Source of the DNA: Chryseobacterium tructae
GTDB lineage: Bacteria > Bacteroidota > Bacteroidia > Flavobacteriales > Weeksellaceae
Length of the DNA stretch: 64,000 nt
Assembly (NCBI RefSeq): GCF_030409875.1
Contig: NZ_JAUFQR010000001.1
Span: forward strand, 3,596,001 to 3,660,000
Reading direction: 5' to 3'
Shown here: positions 3,016-21,445 of the stretch, one piece after another
Position numbering within the stretch: position 1 is the first letter of the stretch
How the letters are laid out: every line of letters starts with the position of its first letter
The notes under the pieces: model-generated
Seen by the model: the letters and a program-made list of their open reading frames with translations, nothing else
Database searches by the model: none
What the model was told of the DNA's origin: nothing
Made by a program: the position numbers and the translations under genes

Positions 3016-5463
3016 TTAAAAATCGACAAAAACATCCTTTTTAATGCTTTGGTAAGCAGTAATCTCATCGAATTCTTTCAAACTTATCAAAACCAAGCTT
3101 TTAAACTTTTCATAGTTTTTCCCACGGGGTAATTTTAATAAAATCTGGAATTGATATAAATTATTCAGCCTAGCGATCTGGGCTCTTTCTGGTCCTAAAA
3201 TACATTCTTCAGGAAGGTATTTTCTCAGAATAGATCCTAAAAACTGAGAGGCACGATCTACTTTATCATCTCTTCGATGTTTCAGTTCGATCATAATCAG
3301 CTTGGTAAACGGCGGATAATGGAATTTCTGACGTTCAGTAAGGATATATTTATAAATCTTCGCCGGATTATTCATCTTTATCAGCTGGAATACAGAATGA
3401 TCCGGATTATAGGTTTGAATCAAAATTTTTCCTTTCCCAGAAGTCCTCCCTGCTCTTCCAGACACTTGTGTGATCAACTGGTATGCTCGTTCTTCCGCTC
3501 TGAAATCCTGAACATATAATAAGGAATCAGCTTTAGGAATGGCCACCAATTCTATGTGGTCAAAATCAAGTCCCTTGGAAATCATCTGTGTTCCTACCAC
3601 AATATCGGTTTCCCCGTCTTCAATTTTTTCATACAGCTTTTCGTAGGCAAACTTCTTACGCATTGAATCTACATCCATTCTGTCCACCTCATTTTCAGGA
3701 AAGAGTTTGGAAACTTCTTCATGAATCTGTTCTACCCCTACTCCTCTTTCATTCAAATTTTCAGAATTACATTTCGGACAGGTTCGAGGTTTTGAAGCTC
3801 TTTGACCGCAATAGTGGCATTTCATTTCATTGGCCGCTTTATGATACGTCATGACTACATCACAATTGGAGCAATAATTAACATACCCACAGGTTTCACA
3901 CTCTATAACATTGGCATATCCACGTCTGTTATGAAGAACGATGGCCTGGTTCTTTTCATCAATGGTATGCTTAATAGCGTCAATAAGCCTTGTCGAAAAA
4001 TTTCCGGATACGTTTTTAGATTCCTGAGCTTCTTTGAAATTAATCAGTTCATATTCAGGCAAGTTAACATTCCCGAACCTTTCGTTCAGGAAGATGTATT
4101 TCATTTTATCTTTTCTGGCTCTGTAATAGCTTTCAACAGAAGGTGTTGCTGAGCCCAGAATAACTCCAGATTTATATAAACCACCCAGCACCAATGCCGC
4201 ATCTTTGGCATTAAAGTAAGGAGTAACTTCTCTTGGCTTATAGGCGGAATCATGTTCTTCATCTACCACAATCAATCCTAAGTTCTGATACGGTAAAAAC
4301 AAGGCATTTCTAGTTCCTACAAGAATTTGGATATCATTCTGCTTTATTCTACGCCATACTTCTACCCTTTCAAAATCTGTCAGTTTCTGATGGTAAAAGC
4401 CTAACTGTCTGCCATATTTTTTTTCAAGTCTTTGGGTAATCTGCTTAGTCAAAGAAATTTCAGGAAGTAAAAACAAAACATTCTTTCCTTCCCGGATGCA
4501 TTCTTCAATTTTCTCTAAATAAATATGGGTCTTTCCTGATGATGTTACGCCATGAAGCAGTACATTTTTTCCTTCTTCAAAAGCTTCATCAATCTCTGAT
4601 TTTGCAATTTTCTGTTCCTCAGACAGCTCTTCGATCTCTTCAATTTCACCTTCATAACTTTCAATCCTATCTTTCTGCATATAGTATTCTTCAACAAGGC
4701 CTTTGTCTGCCAATGCCTTGAAATGAGAACTTCCAAAATAGCCGTCTTCAAATAATTCGGCTTTTTTAATATGAAGATCAGGTTTTTCAGTCTGTTTTTC
4801 CAAAATCAGGAGGAACAGATCTTTCTGTTTAGGGGCTTTATTAAGTTTTAAAAGAATTTCGGTAAGATTCTGATTGCTTAAAACGCTATCATTGATTCTT
4901 ACATAAGCAACCTCTTTAGCTTTATATTTTTCTGCAATTTTCTCATCAATCTCAATATACTGAAGATCAATCAGAGAATTGATGGTTTTAATAATTTCTT
5001 TCTTAGGAATAAATGCTTCAATATCTGTAAGATTAACTAGTTGTCTTACTTCCAGTGCCTGAATCAAATACATTTCATTGACATCCAGATTTTCAAAGTC
5101 AACAACTATTCCTGGTTTTAATTTTAAATACGTCTCACTTTCCAGTTTTAATGAAGATGGAAAAGCCAATCTGTAAATTTCGCCAAGGTTACACAGGTAA
5201 TAATCGGAAAGCCAGTTCCAGAAACGGATCTGTTCTTCCGGAAGAATTGGTTTTTCGTCCAAAATACTGATGACATCCTTTGCTACAAAGTTATCCGGAG
5301 CATTGTCATGAAGTTCCAAAACAATTCCGGTATAGATTTTCTTTCCACCAAAAGGTACTAACACCCGCATTCCCGGCTGAATTTCAGACATCAGTTCTTC
5401 CGGAACCTTATAGGTAAAGGATCCTTTTAAATTCAGCGGTAAAACAATTTGAGCGTATGACAA
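3016..5463 (-). CDS. priA: Primosomal replication restart helicase PriA
   Basis: 3'-5' DNA helicase that reloads the replisome at stalled forks. The 815-residue product is full length. The N-terminal 3'-DNA-binding domain (residues 1-110) is followed by a winged-helix region and two RecA-like lobes. Walker A is HGVTSSGKT near residue 305 and the Walker B/DEAH box is VVDEEHDSAY near 400. Eight cysteines in CxxC pairs (CETCGYVNYCSNC and later CHYCG, CPKC, about residues 520-565) form the two-zinc insertion that is diagnostic of PriA. The unbroken frame across 2.4 kb contrasts with the broken dacB next to it. It diverges from the TSUP gene at 5566. Confidence 0.97.
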   Translation of the reverse strand: MSYAQIVLPLNLKGSFTYKVPEELMSEIQPGMRVLVPFGGKKIYTGIVLELHDNAPDNFVAKDVISILDEKPILPEEQIRFWNWLSDYYLCNLGEIYRLAFPSSLKLESETYLKLKPGIVVDFENLDVNEMYLIQALEVRQLVNLTDIEAFIPKKEIIKTINSLIDLQYIEIDEKIAEKYKAKEVAYVRINDSVLSNQNLTEILLKLNKAPKQKDLFLLILEKQTEKPDLHIKKAELFEDGYFGSSHFKALADKGLVEEYYMQKDRIESYEGEIEEIEELSEEQKIAKSEIDEAFEEGKNVLLHGVTSSGKTHIYLEKIEECIREGKNVLFLLPEISLTKQITQRLEKKYGRQLGFYHQKLTDFERVEVWRRIKQNDIQILVGTRNALFLPYQNLGLIVVDEEHDSAYKPREVTPYFNAKDAALVLGGLYKSGVILGSATPSVESYYRARKDKMKYIFLNERFGNVNLPEYELINFKEAQESKNVSGNFSTRLIDAIKHTIDEKNQAIVLHNRRGYANVIECETCGYVNYCSNCDVVMTYHKAANEMKCHYCGQRASKPRTCPKCNSENLNERGVGVEQIHEEVSKLFPENEVDRMDVDSMRKKFAYEKLYEKIEDGETDIVVGTQMISKGLDFDHIELVAIPKADSLLYVQDFRAEERAYQLITQVSGRAGRTSGKGKILIQTYNPDHSVFQLIKMNNPAKIYKYILTERQKFHYPPFTKLIMIELKHRRDDKVDRASQFLGSILRKYLPEECILGPERAQIARLNNLYQFQILLKLPRGKNYEKFKSLVLISLKEFDEITAYQSIKKDVFVDF

Positions 5464-16893: not shown

Positions 16894-16930
16894 AATAAAG
16901 ACTGCTGAAATATCATCAACAGTCTTTATT
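16894..16930. terminator. Bidirectional hairpin terminator between convergent operons
   Basis: Perfect 11-bp arms AATAAAGACTG / CAGTCTTTATT. A/T runs on both sides let it serve the efflux operon (plus) and the DUF6691 gene (minus). Confidence 0.75.
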
Positions 16931-16948
16931 TATTCAATTAAATTAACC

Positions 16949-17436
16949 TTAATGTGGGAGTTTATCTCTGAAGTAGCCATAAACCCAGGTTCCTGCAATA
17001 GCACTTAAAAGGGTTATGGATACTGCCAAAGCTCCTGTTCCGATCTGAGCAAACAGTGGTCCTGGGCATGCTCCGGTAATGGCCCATCCAAAACCAAAAA
17101 TAAGCCCTCCATAAATCTGACCTTTATTGAATTGTTTCGGAGCCAGTGTTATAGGTTCTCCGTAAATTGTCTTGATATTAAATTTTTAATAAGCCATACG
17201 GAAACAATCCCTACTAAAACAGCGCTTCCGATGATTCCATACATGTGAAATGACTGCAAGCGAAACATTTCCTGAATTCTGAACCAACTGATGACCTCAG
17301 CTTTTACGAAGATAATTCCAAAAATAATTCCTGCTGCCAGATATTTCAAGTTATGAAACCATTTGTGATCCGGCTTATTTTCGTTCACATGCGCTGAGTT
17401 CTGATAGCGGATATTTTGTTCTTGTTCTTTTATCAT
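16949..17436 (-). CDS. DUF6691 family membrane protein (YeeE/YedE-related half), frameshifted
   Basis: Inner-membrane protein of about 162 residues with four hydrophobic segments. It is one half of the split YeeE/YedE sulfur-transport family. The frame breaks at 17180-17182: adding one A (plus strand) restores KNFNIKTIYGEP and then a conserved tail containing GFGWAITGACPGP, which carries the cysteine of this family, ending at the TAA at 16949. Without that tail the product would lose its key Cys motif. The N-terminal 25 residues are polar and may be part of the true protein. The YeeE partner is 25 bp upstream on the same strand. Confidence 0.85.
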
Positions 17437-17461: not shown

Positions 17462-18025
17462 TTACAAGGCAAGGATCATTGGTAGAATAAGGTTTGCCAT
17501 TAAAAACCCGCCAATCATAAAACAAATAGTGGCCACTAAAGAAGGCCATTGCAGATTGGAAAGCCCCATAATAGCATGCCCACTGGTACACCCGCCGGCA
17601 TATCTGGTTCCAAAGCCTACCAGAAATCCACCAACAACCATCAGGATAAATCCTCTTAAGGTCAGAAGACTTTCGAAGTTCATAAGCTGCACTGGAACAA
17701 GATTGGTGTAATCTGTAATTCCATACCCTGCCAATTCTGTTTTCAAATCAGGATTAACTGTAATTTCAGATGGATTGAGAAGAAAATTGGCAGCAATCAT
17801 TCCGCCAAAGAAAATACCTAATACAAAAAACAGGTTCCAGGCTTCCTTTTTCCAGTCATATTTAAAAAAGTTGACATTAGCCGGTATACAAGCGGCACAT
17901 ACATGCCTCAGTGAGGAACTTATCCCAAAAGATTTGTTTCCCATGATCAGCAAGGCAGGAACCGTTAATCCAATTAAAGGTCCCGCAATATACCATGGCC
18001 ATGGTTCTTTTATAATTTCCAACAT
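17462..18025 (-). CDS. YeeE/YedE family thiosulfate/sulfur transporter subunit
   Basis: Inner-membrane protein of 187 residues with about five hydrophobic segments. The motif RYAGGCTSGHAIMG (about residues 141-154) holds the conserved cysteine which, in characterised YeeE, passes thiosulfate through the membrane. A CAACIP motif sits near residue 43. Paired with the DUF6691 gene downstream, it makes the two-gene split form common in Bacteroidota. The MBL-rhodanese gene ends 12 bp upstream, so all three are probably one transcript concerned with sulfane sulfur. The substrate (thiosulfate or polysulfide) is an inference from the family. Confidence 0.88.
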   Translation of the reverse strand: MLEIIKEPWPWYIAGPLIGLTVPALLIMGNKSFGISSSLRHVCAACIPANVNFFKYDWKKEAWNLFFVLGIFFGGMIAANFLLNPSEITVNPDLKTELAGYGITDYTNLVPVQLMNFESLLTLRGFILMVVGGFLVGFGTRYAGGCTSGHAIMGLSNLQWPSLVATICFMIGGFLMANLILPMILAL

Positions 18026-18037
18026 ATCTATTTCTTA

Positions 18038-19449
18038 TTATTTTAAAATTTTCGTCTGACATACAAAATCACTTTTGGAAACTCCGGTAGAAGCAATGGC
18101 TTTAAAACCACCTTCTATTTCCGTAAAGTTTCTGAATCCTCTTGCCTGAAGAATACTGGCTGCCATCATACTTCTATACCCTCCTGCACAATGCAGATAA
18201 AAATGTTCTTCTGACCGGATCTCTTCAATCCATTTATTAATATAAGCTAGAGGCTTACTGTAGGCTTCATTAATATGTTCAGCAGCATATTCATTTTCTT
18301 TTCTTACATCAATAATTTTCACGTTTCTCCCTTCGATCTCTTTTTCAAACTGCGCAGCAGAAATACGGTTGACAGAATCCGTTTCGTTTCCACTGTTCTT
18401 CCATTCTTCAAAACCGCCTTGTAAGAACCCAAGAATATGATCAAATCCTACCCGGCTTAACCGGGTTACTGCTTCTTCTTCATCCCCAGGTTTTGTCACC
18501 AACAGAATAGGCTGATTTACATCTGCAATCAATGCACCTACCCATGGCGCAAAATCACCATCCAACCCTATATTGACAGATTTCGGAATAAATCCTTTGG
18601 CAAATTCACTATTGTTTCTCACATCCAACATCAAAGCACCGGAAGCTTCTGCTATTTCTTCAAACTGTCTGGGTGTAAGAGCCTGTAATCCTTTGACAAT
18701 ATATTATCAAAACTATTATACCCTTTTCTATTCATCATCACATTCATTCCGAAATAATCTGGTGGAGGTAAAAGCCCATCTGTTACTGCTTGGATAAAGC
18801 CTTCTCTATTGTTCTGATTAAGCGCATAATTTATTTTCTTTTGGTTCCCTAATGTATCAACCGTTTCCTTTTGCATATTCTTACCGCATGCTGAACCTGC
18901 TCCATGAGCCGGATAGACTGTAATATTGTCATTTAAAGGTAAAATTTTATGGTATAAACTATCATAAAGTAATCCTGCCAGATCTTCCTGTGTCATATCC
19001 GCTGCTTTTTGAGCAAGATCCGGACGGCCTACATCTCCCAGAAATAAAGTATCTCCACTGAAAAGAGCCTGCTCATTTCCTTGTTGATCAATTAATAGGT
19101 AACAAGAACTTTCCAATGTATGTCCTGGCGTGTGCAGAACCTTAATTTTAACATCTCCTATTTTGAATATCTGCTCATCTTCTGCAATAATAGCCTCAAA
19201 TTCCGGCTTTGCTGTTGATCCATAAACGATGGGAGCATTTGTTTTTTTGCTTAAATCAATATGTCCGCTCACAAAATCAGCATGGAAATGAGTTTCAAAA
19301 ATATATTTTAATTGTACCCCATCTTTTTCTAACCTCTCCATATAAGGCTGGGTTTCGCGCAAAGGATCAATAATGGCAGCTTCTCCGGCTGAAGTAATAT
19401 AATAAGCACCTTGCGCCAAACATCCTGTATAAATCTGTTCTATTTTCAT
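18038..19449 (-). CDS. MBL-fold hydrolase fused to rhodanese domains (persulfide dioxygenase-like), frameshifted
   Basis: Metallo-beta-lactamase-fold protein (residues 1-245) followed by two rhodanese modules, about 470 residues once the frame is mended. The metal motif reads THFHADFVSGH: the first His matches the iron ligand of ETHE1-type persulfide dioxygenases, while the final His of the standard HxHxDH is Phe, fitting a single-metal site. HTPGHT and PAHGAGSAC carry further ligands. The last rhodanese module has the active Cys in LHCAGGYRS. One missing A at 18692-18694 splits the gene. Restoring it gives SKGLQALTPRQFEEI and joins the halves. It is the first gene of the YeeE operon and is preceded by the 36-bp element at 19508. 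Confidence 0.9.
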
Positions 19450-19773
19450 CTTACTTATTTTTTGATTTTGTTTTTCTGAGACAAATTTCCTGTTTCCTGT
19501 TTTCTCCTACAGCTACTTTTGTTACATAACAGAATTTTGAGTGTAAACATCCCTATTTTTACTTTTTTTATAACCACAAAAGTTTATTTTTATAACACTT
19601 TAGGAAGTTAAAAGGTATCGCATAAAAATTCACTAAAGATGAAAATCTATGATTTGCATGAAGCTTAAGTGCTCTTTTCAGCAGTAAGCATAATAACTTA
19701 TATTTTACTTAAGTGTTATAAAAACTTTTCTGGTTTTAATTATGTTCCATTTTTTTAACCCTTCAAGATAAGC
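19450..19773. other. Upstream region of the MBL-rhodanese operon, no gene
   Basis: A/T-rich spacer of 324 bp. Apart from the 36-bp element at 19508-19543 it shows no coding potential and no strong hairpin. Confidence 0.5.
19508..19543 (-). promoter_or_regulatory. Putative operator A of the sulfur island
   Basis: A 36-bp block that matches 20614-20649 at 35 of 36 positions. Its core TGTTACATAACA (19520-19531) is a perfect dyad with a 2-bp centre, extended as TTnTGTTA..TAACAnAA. It lies about 70-110 bp upstream of the MBL-rhodanese start. A Crp-family regulator is encoded 1.3 kb away at 20791 and is the obvious candidate ligand (inference). Confidence 0.6.
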
Positions 19774-20568
19774 TTAAAGAAATATCTCCTTGGTTATAAT
19801 ATAGATTCCCATTACCAAAATAAACCATCCAAAGGCAGGTTTTAATTTTTCACCATCTATCTTTTTTGAAATTTGTGATCCTATGATAATTCCAATGATG
19901 GCAATCACAGCAATAGTGATAAGTACATTCCATTCTATTTTTGCATTGCTGATGGATGAAAAAAAGCCAATAAGAGAGTTTAAAGAAATAATAACCAATG
20001 AAGTTCCTATGGCTGTTTTTATCGGAACTTTCAAAAGATTTACCAATGCCGGGATAATCATAAATCCTCCTCCTGCACCAACTAATCCTGTTAAAATCCC
20101 GACCATCGTTCCTTCACCAGCAGCTAGCAAAACTTTATTTGTATTCAATTCATTTCCGCTTACCTCTTCCGTGGTCTGATTCTTAATCATTTTATAAGAA
20201 GCCAGAATCATCAAAAAGGCAAAAAGCAACAGGAGAAAAATGTTTTTAGTCACAGTAAAACCTCTTATGCTGAGAAGTTCATCCGGAATCAGAGGCAGCC
20301 AATACATTCTGGTTAGAAAAATTGAAATAATAGAAGGAATTCCAAATATCAGAGCCATTTTAAAATTCACCAATCCTTTTTTAAAATAGGTTATGGATCC
20401 CACGGCACTGCTCATACCCACAATAAAAAGAGAATACTCTGTAGCCAATAAAGCATCAATTCCAAAAAGATATACCAAAACAGGAACAGTGAGAATACTT
20501 CCGCCACCACCGATTAACCCTAAGGAAACACCAATTAAAATAGATGCTGCATATCCTATAAATTCCAT
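19774..20568 (-). CDS. TSUP family (TauE/SafE) transporter, sulfur island
   Basis: Inner-membrane permease of 264 residues with eight hydrophobic segments. Both family glycine motifs are present: IGVSLGLIGGGGSILTVPVL near the N-terminus and VGILTGLVGAGGGFMIIPAL in the second half. The double GGGxS/GAGGGF pattern and its position next to YeeE and an MBL-rhodanese gene point to export or uptake of sulfite, thiosulfate or another sulfur anion. It is not closely similar to the TSUP at 5.6 kb. It is preceded by the second 36-bp element, so it is probably controlled together with the MBL-rhodanese operon although transcribed separately. Confidence 0.88.
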   Translation of the reverse strand: MEFIGYAASILIGVSLGLIGGGGSILTVPVLVYLFGIDALLATEYSLFIVGMSSAVGSITYFKKGLVNFKMALIFGIPSIISIFLTRMYWLPLIPDELLSIRGFTVTKNIFLLLLFAFLMILASYKMIKNQTTEEVSGNELNTNKVLLAAGEGTMVGILTGLVGAGGGFMIIPALVNLLKVPIKTAIGTSLVIISLNSLIGFFSSISNAKIEWNVLITIAVIAIIGIIIGSQISKKIDGEKLKPAFGWFILVMGIYIITKEIFL

Positions 20569-20613
20569 TTGTTCAAATATTATGATGCAAAAATGGGATT
20601 GTTTGAAGAGAAG

Positions 20614-20649
20614 TACAGCTACTTTTGTTACATAGCAGAATTTTGAGTG
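20614..20649 (-). promoter_or_regulatory. Putative operator B of the sulfur island
   Basis: Second copy of the 36-bp block at 19508. The dyad is TGTTACATAGCA here (one arm base changed). It lies about 45-80 bp upstream of the TSUP start codon, a similar place relative to its gene as operator A. Confidence 0.6.
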
Positions 20650-20676
20650 CAGATATTGTTAATGTTTAGTTTTTTT

Positions 20677-20731
20677 AACCACCCCGTCAAAAATTCTTTG
20701 AATTTTTGACACCTCTCCAGAGGAGGGGAAT
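20677..20731. repeat. Dispersed CACCCCGT...CTCCAGAGGAGG repeat, copy 1
   Basis: Contains a perfect inverted repeat GTCAAAAATTC / GAATTTTTGAC (20686-20710) and then CCTCTCCAGAGG. A second copy is at 35979-36031. It lies between the Crp regulator and the TSUP gene. Confidence 0.7.
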
Positions 20732-20790
20732 ATAAACGTTTATGATTAGCTGGAGGAGAAAGACAAAGGAAACGTGAAAAAAAATGGGAA

Positions 20791-21426
20791 TTACTTTGTG
20801 ATTTTCAAGAGAATGATTTTGTTTCTTCCCAGTTTTACTCTTCCATCTTCTTCCAGTTGTTTCAGAAGTCTTGACACCACTACTCTAGCCGTTCCGAGTT
20901 CATTGGCAAGCTGTTCATGCGTAATTGTAATCATATCGGAATTAGTAAGCTCAGATTTTTTATGGAGAAGATCCAGTAATCTTTCATCTACTTTTTTGAA
21001 AGCAATCGCATTGATAATATCAAGTAATTCTTCAAAACGTTTGTGGTAAAGTCTGAAAATATAGTCCAGCCATTCCGGATGTTCTTTGATGAATAAAGAA
21101 ACCTTATCTACAGGAAGAAAAAGAATCTCAGCATCTTCTTCAATTTCTGCTTTTACGATACTTTTCTCATTATGCATTCCTCCCAGAAAAGACATGATGC
21201 AGCTCTCTCCCGCTTTGATATAATACAGCAGAATTTCACGTCCGTCCTCTTCCGTTCGGATGACCTTCAGCATTCCTTTCATCACAATAGGAATAGAACG
21301 TATGGAGGCATTTTCATCCAAAATAATATCTCCTTCATGGTAGTTTTTAGTGATTCCGTATTGATATAGCTTTTCAACCAGATCAGGTGAAGAGGAGAAT
21401 TCAGAAGAAAGTATGTTATCTTGCAT
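20791..21426 (-). CDS. Crp/Fnr family transcriptional regulator of the sulfur island
   Basis: Regulator of 211 residues. The cyclic-nucleotide-binding-like barrel (about residues 15-125) includes GDIILDENASIRSIPIVMKG and the loop GESCIMSFLGGM. The C-terminal winged helix ends with ITHEQLANELGTARVVVSRL (about residues 168-187), a textbook Crp recognition helix. Only a single Cys stands in the barrel, so an Fe-S cluster is unlikely. A lone Cys could sense persulfide, which would be speculation. The 11-mer TTTTGTTACAT found in both operators also overlaps the start codon of this gene (21426-21436). It begins 19 bp from the end of the GH20 gene on the same strand. Confidence 0.9.
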   Translation of the reverse strand: MQDNILSSEFSSSPDLVEKLYQYGITKNYHEGDIILDENASIRSIPIVMKGMLKVIRTEEDGREILLYYIKAGESCIMSFLGGMHNEKSIVKAEIEEDAEILFLPVDKVSLFIKEHPEWLDYIFRLYHKRFEELLDIINAIAFKKVDERLLDLLHKKSELTNSDMITITHEQLANELGTARVVVSRLLKQLEEDGRVKLGRNKIILLKITK

Positions 21427-21445
21427 TTTGTTACATTGAATAGGG

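Follow-up and report, generated by a model that had tools for sequence, protein, structure and literature searches.

A sequence element that occurs twice in a sulfur-gene locus of Chryseobacterium tructae is very likely the class II operator of the Crp-family protein encoded beside it, from which this protein would activate the promoters of a TSUP gene and of an MBL-rhodanese-YeeE operon. The element is conserved before these genes, stands in a fixed register to a promoter box, is linked to and co-occurs with the crp gene, and varies together with a residue of the recognition helix. From these comparisons of sequences we infer binding, activation, the start of transcription and the signal; phylum-level loci that lack the layout lower our confidence slightly. 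A local, probably cAMP-independent Crp-type activator thus very probably controls sulfane-sulfur genes in Chryseobacterium and other Bacteroidota.

A repeated element in a sulfur-gene locus

The window, i.e., the whole stretch of DNA that was analysed (64,000 nt), carries on its minus strand, in this order, a hexosaminidase gene (presumably so, as named from its sequence), crp, TSUP, MBL, rhodanese, YeeE and a second half transporter. The features are listed below; the placement of the boxes at -12 to -5 in both promoters was taken from the available text of PMC9723704.

20791..21426, minus strand: Crp-family regulator, 211 aa (Pfam cNMP_binding and HTH_Crp_2; alignments)
20617..20632, minus strand: operator core before TSUP, 16 bp, TGTAACAAAAGTAGCT, centre 20624.5 (predicted -41.5; genus conservation)
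20614-20632: conserved 19-mer before TSUP
20588..20595, minus strand: -7 box CATTTTTG of the TSUP promoter, predicted +1 at 20583
19774..20568, minus strand: TSUP (TauE/SafE, PF01925) transporter, 264 aa (Pfam)
19511..19526, minus strand: operator core before MBL-rhodanese, 16 bp, TGTAACAAAAGTAGCT, centre 19518.5 (predicted -41.5; genus conservation)
19508-19526: conserved 19-mer before MBL-rhodanese
19482..19489, minus strand: -7 box GAAATTTG of the MBL promoter, predicted +1 at 19477
18652..19449, minus strand: MBL-fold part of the MBL-rhodanese protein (PF00753)
18038..18634, minus strand: rhodanese part, in a different frame in this assembly (PF00581, two stretches)
17462..18025, minus strand: YeeE/TsuA-like half transporter (PF04143)
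17149..17436, minus strand: second half transporter, frame broken at its end (matches adjoin YeeE in relatives' loci)

The MBL part matched the sulfurtransferase/dioxygenase Blh weakly (63.2 bits vs a cut-off of 625), and the YeeE half transporter scored 39.4 bits as TsuA-like (cut-off 400). The second half transporter (17149..17436), which we take to be DUF6691, gave no match in the Pfam search. MBL and rhodanese (18038-19449) are encoded in a single frame in 72 of the 74 loci having both; the exceptions are the window and one further locus (L163), and the split suggests an indel in the assembly or a pseudogene of recent origin. Likewise, the remainder of the second half transporter (16930-17436) runs on in another frame, and two frame breaks within one operon suggest indel errors of the assembly. 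At the other end, the hexosaminidase-like gene, which shares the strand of crp, stops some 20 nt short of it (21427-21445), as it does in many relatives' loci, so that crp may be co-transcribed with it.

An earlier note on this DNA had described two near-identical 36-bp blocks with diverging spacers. This was borne out: blocks 19508-19543 and 20614-20649 agree at 35 of 36 bases with one mismatch, and identity falls off at either end. Searched without mismatches, the 19-mer pattern matched the genome (5.63 Mb) solely at the two window sites, and the read-backwards control of the similar pattern used on the relatives gave 0 matches in the same genome, which excludes chance as the origin of the pair. 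Looser matches carry no meaning, because at up to three mismatches the pattern matched 28 times (13 + 15), exactly as often as its control (13 + 15). The composite of operator and box occurred exactly twice at 0 mismatches. A larger regulon in this genome was considered and rejected, since the composite at up to one mismatch gave 16 matches (8 + 8), i.e., 14 extra ones, and the reversed control 8 + 7.

Between 19 and 22 of the 36 bp are kept genus-wide. The remaining 14 bp (CACTCAAAATTCTG, gene strand) are common to both promoters in the close lineage of the window only: these bases upstream of the operator are the same or nearly so at both promoters in the window and in L080 and similar in L083, and a further close relative (L085) has them at MBL only. 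This suggests recent copying from one promoter to the other, superimposed on a functional site of older date.

Conservation of the sites in Chryseobacterium-type loci

For comparison, loci of Chryseobacterium-type genomes were chosen by their crp gene and not by the site; the close loci that carry a name belong to Chryseobacterium and in some cases to Epilithonimonas. This gave 85 loci with crp, the window copy included, to which we added one locus fetched for its exact site (from genome G109), 86 in total; a locus with crp and sites on separate contigs (G001) was left out. Sites were called with a relaxed, slightly degenerate pattern at up to two mismatches within 400 nt before TSUP, MBL or YeeE genes. 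We found 165 sites like TGTAACAAAAGTARCKGTA, of which 159 had no mismatch, and the evolutionarily lasting part reads CTTATGTAACAAAAGTARCKGTA on the gene strand. At least one site preceded a TSUP, MBL or YeeE gene in all 86 loci. Relatives that retain the genes have thus kept the element, as the earlier note's proposal demanded, with sites upstream of 75/75 TSUP and 72/76 MBL genes in addition to 18/86 YeeE genes. The four MBL genes without a site belong to L154, L156, L159 and L160. Of the 68 YeeE genes that lack a site, 57 stand 10-67 nt behind the previous match in an operon-like manner, and 11 are found 143-715 nt behind it and are not plainly operonic. All nine loci that lack both TSUP and MBL have the site before YeeE. 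Several loci carry a 37-38% identical MBL-rhodanese gene behind YeeE with a site of its own; L156, L159 and L160 have this gene without a site. Because it is kept before YeeE and before the 37-38% identical MBL gene in rearranged loci, the site marks promoters and not one particular gene.

In L108 (2260-3581 in the orientation of crp), YeeE directly follows a site and a remnant of MBL, its first 28 codons, in a deletion-scar-like arrangement, and a 339-aa gene on the opposite strand occupies the place expected for TSUP.

The presence of crp and that of the site go together. A crp orthologue (E below 1e-100) was detected in 79 of the 118 sampled genomes of the genus, and one more (G063) has crp in pieces. 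Allowing up to one mismatch, we found TGTAACAAAAGTRRCNGTR in 80/80 genomes with crp and in 7/38 without (Fisher p 5e-22, with genomes that are not independent). A strict pattern searched in 59 relatives, 36 of them of the genus, matched 23 genomes, all within the genus, and its control matched none. Of the seven crp-less genomes only G109 has an exact site, at 5001-5019 of its locus (L164) before an MBL-rhodanese gene. Either recent loss of crp or another binder would account for this orphan.

Register of sites and promoter boxes

The motif TTTG starts 22 nt after the 19-mer in 155 of the 165 genus sites, and TTTA takes its place in 8 of the other ten. The 19-mer carries 1.83 bits of information per position, compared with 0.28 for the 36 bases upstream of it and 0.37 for the gap. 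According to the available text of PMC9723704, the housekeeping box of Flavobacterium psychrophilum is TAnnTTTG and spans -12 to -5. Applied to our loci, this rule places the core TGTAAC-AAAA-GTARCK at a predicted centre of -41.5, and a conserved A (138/165) falls on the predicted +1. A gap of 21 nt separates the 16-bp core from the downstream -7 box NAnnTTTG; with the start site as predicted, this is a class II distance. At -12, 158/165 genus sites have C or G, against a roughly even background, and this bias suggests that the promoters are kept weak without an activator.

We thus propose that a Crp dimer binds the 16-mer, with the TGTAAC half upstream and the degenerate GTARC half downstream. 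The bound dimer would take the place of the -33 box and would recruit the Bacteroidota housekeeping RNA polymerase to the weak -7 box lacking T at -12. Two promoters would be activated in this way, one for TSUP and one for the MBL-rhodanese-YeeE operon; the family names suggest export by TSUP, an enzymatic role for MBL-rhodanese and import by the YeeE-type protein.

The same protein could act as a repressor that is released from the site when sulfur species modify it, a reading that we consider unlikely. It has a parallel in BigR, a persulfide-sensing repressor that controls a yeeE-yedE-pdo2 operon (PMC7315123, from the available text); furthermore, the site overlaps the -33 region, and a repressor could also act from -41.5. 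However, the predicted centre at -41.5 is that of the class II layout, and the prevalence of C or G at -12 gives the promoters an activator-dependent look.

Loci beyond the genus

At the order level, 81 of 395 genomes matched; all 14 non-genus loci of 57-80% identity were fetched, as were 6 chosen loci of the 50-56% group, and matches of 37-45% were left out. A related 16-mer was found exactly 21 nt before NAnnTTT(G/A) in all 14 orthologue loci. The same layout of 16-mer, 21-nt gap and box was present in 6/6 fetched loci of a 52-55% identical paralogue group and in 6/7 further named non-genus loci (including Pedobacter, Parapedobacter, Sphingobacterium and Soonwooa). These order-level and named-locus searches required a good half-site, so that the left halves were partly selected for. 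In-register matches that do not precede these genes were dropped as chance (L195 at 7735, L199 at 3587, L200 at 8218, and L292 at 6492 and 13922). Some outgroup sites are symmetric (TGTRAY-N4-RTYACA), and near-perfect dyads such as TGTAATTTTTGTTACA, TGTAACATTGGTTACT and TGTAACCTGCGTTACG occur in some outgroups. No operator was found beside the TSUP genes adjoining crp in L197, L199 and L200, before an MBL gene of L256 in the named-locus comparison, or in Nubsella (L294, further named loci), which has crp and none of the TSUP, MBL or YeeE genes.

At the phylum level, 82 of 395 genomes matched. Among the best 30 of these 82 loci, nine showed the layout with a gap of 21 (5/5 from the genus, 4/25 others). 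The remaining gaps between 15 and 27 were each seen in at most one locus, and two controls gave 0 at gap 21 and at most 2 elsewhere. Of the 25 non-genus loci in this sample, 11 have a TGT(A/G)A half lying across the stop codon of crp; in the other 14, no operator across the crp stop was found, although L309 has an exact 16-mer further downstream. Read by eye, the genes behind the 11 straddling sites comprise 3 TSUP, 3 single rhodaneses and 5 small membrane proteins. In general, many outgroup crp stops (L195-L214, L297-L324) sit inside the operator of the next gene, as TG-TAA-C or TG-TGA-C.

Recognition helix and bases of the proposed operator

The regulator exhibits the domains of the CRP/FNR superfamily (PF00027, 41 bits; PF13545, 44.5 bits; both above the cut-off). 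Persulfide sensors of the ArsR, CsoR or Fis type were considered and rejected for this protein, since Pfam gave Crp-type and generic HTH matches only. Its recognition helix reads R181-V-V-V-S-R186. Orthologues share the helix R-V-V-V/I-S-R, with V182 in 85/85 genus-type and 14/14 order-level rows, and the paralogue group has E182 in 6/6 cases; three phylum loci read R-E-V-I-S-R. Residue 182 presumably takes the place of CRP E181, which reads position 7 of the operator.

We compared the V and E classes using a list of outside-genus sites compiled by hand. A TGTGA-type half, with G at position 7, occurred in 14/15 E-class vs 6/40 V-class sites (Fisher 1.2e-7, relatedness uncorrected). Counted per locus, the covariation of residue 182 with position 7 amounted to 8/9 for E vs 5/27 for V. 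This change by class is as expected if residue 182 reads position 7. L301, which has A182, was counted apart from both classes. The list left out the Epilithonimonas/Chryseobacterium loci L256, L259, L265, L276, L277, L281, L284 and L293, the off-stop operators of L309, L295 and L312, and the second L297 site. G5 and A8 were present in both halves of all outside sites (40/40 V-class, 15/15 E-class), with a search filter that favoured them in one half. The window core is a weak dyad, with 3/6 pairs.

The two classes also differ at -12: in lists restricted to the non-genus loci of the order-level and named-locus searches, C or G was found at 32/33 V-class promoters and T at 12/12 E-class promoters. 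The phylum sample breaks this rule, as the V-class loci L300 and L316 have T and L310 has A.

These data also bear on the idea that the 19-mer belongs to an alternative sigma factor or to an unlinked regulator, e.g., as a direct repeat GTAAC/GTARC. The genus site is indeed asymmetric, its distance to the box is constant, and the G109 site exists without crp. Nevertheless, we regard this as improbable, more so than repression, because the box resembles the housekeeping TAnnTTTG, the site co-occurs with crp, outgroup sites form dyads, and helix and site covary.

Centre of the proposed operator and the third site

The earlier note had proposed that MBL-rhodanese, TSUP and YeeE genes form a Crp-linked regulon with an operator TGTTA-N2-TAACA of 2-bp centre, possibly including the start of crp. 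By comparison, the regulon part holds up, as the sites are kept; the operator does not. TGTTA-CA-TAACA is a perfect dyad in the first window copy only, the second copy having TAGCA, and the inner TTA-TG-TAA is partly kept in the genus. However, the left half TGTTA is exact in 8/165 sites; CCTTA (41) and TCTTA (38) are the commonest of the 165 5-mers directly before TGTAACA. The conserved block extends downstream and is asymmetric about the proposed centre at 19525.5, and the symmetric outgroup sites are centred elsewhere. Our centres (19518.5 and 20624.5) lie 7 bp away and would give the ordinary CRP spacing of 16 bp. The window holds three copies of TTTTGTTACAT (19517, 20623 and 21426) and none on the other strand. 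The third, at the crp start, was rejected as an autoregulatory operator: as TGTAACAAAATG occurs there in 2/85 crp loci, we take this copy as chance. Taken together, the reading with a 2-bp centre and the crp start included is very improbable. Outgroup crp genes often end CTT ATG TAA C; this gave us the idea that the conserved CTTA flank may be a partial relic of a crp end.

We assign a negligible probability to the chance duplication of an RNA leader element or terminator, a reading suggested by the repetition close to start codons, because the site lies upstream of the -7 box and hence outside the predicted transcript, and has no further exact copy in the genome.

Signal and wider significance

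For the proposed activator, cAMP is an unlikely signal. M78 and K88 align with, and replace, E72 and R82 of CRP, which are cAMP-contact residues. The protein scored 53.3 bits against the NCBIfam CRP equivalog, which has a cut-off of 266. The gene content leads us to guess that sulfane sulfur, thiosulfate or sulfide is probably the signal. Cys76 aligned in 104 of 105 Crps, with one row gapped; by alignment with CRP, it lies beside the effector pocket. A Cys also stands at this place in a second Crp of the genome, 35% identical, and in PDB 3dv8; Cys76 was thus rejected as a sulfur-specific mark, though it may still take part in sensing.

A bolder reading is that a phylum-wide, cAMP-independent CRP branch serves as a sulfane-sulfur sensor with a Cys76 switch and carries its own operator, often across the crp stop. 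We put this forward tentatively, as possible, with the balance of our judgement somewhat against it. If it were true, the regulator and its target promoter would move as one unit before TSUP, rhodanese, MBL or YeeE genes. The present analysis names a candidate regulator and an exact proposed operator for it; it also predicts start sites and pairs a helix residue with a base. Regulation in Bacteroidota is poorly mapped, and the operator could be used as an annotation marker for sulfur-handling promoters.

Comparison with known systems

Among the matches listed in searches of the open-access literature, none described a Bacteroidota regulator for sulfide, persulfide or thiosulfate, nor a Crp-type sulfur regulator of this phylum; this is a weak indication of novelty. 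Of two known regulators of such genes, FisR is a sigma54 activator and BigR a repressor of the ArsR family, in contrast to the Crp-family protein with its own operator considered here. The gene sets under control are similar: the Acinetobacter BigR/FisR circuits act on yeeE-yedE-pdo2 and on pdo, sqr and tauE sets in sulfur detoxification (PMC7315123, available text). BT4338 and CrpPg share the Crp family and the phylum with our regulator. CrpPg binds DNA without cAMP, and the words sulfur and rhodanese are absent from the available main text of that paper (PMC12040651). BT4338 differs in its predicted motif, TATGTTnTAnAACATA, and in controlling a sugar regulon, as given in the available text of PMC3878776.

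The regulator resembles E. coli CRP in its fold domains, in the geometry of its proposed 16-bp operator and in the predicted class II position; the CRP operator is TGTGA-N6-TCACA. A further relative is NtcA, the cyanobacterial nitrogen regulator of the CRP family, whose helix R-V-T-V-T-R aligns with R-V-V-V-S-R here, although our protein scored 34.2 against the NtcA equivalog, far below the NCBIfam cut-off of 244.95. The class II site of NtcA, GTAN8TAC, is centred at about -41.5; in one example, 22 nt separate it from the -10 box (PMC3898017, available text). The left half of our operator corresponds to a full GTA half. In contrast to NtcA, the right half is GTARC and does not mirror the left, the box is the -7 box of Bacteroidota, and the targets are sulfur genes instead of nitrogen genes.
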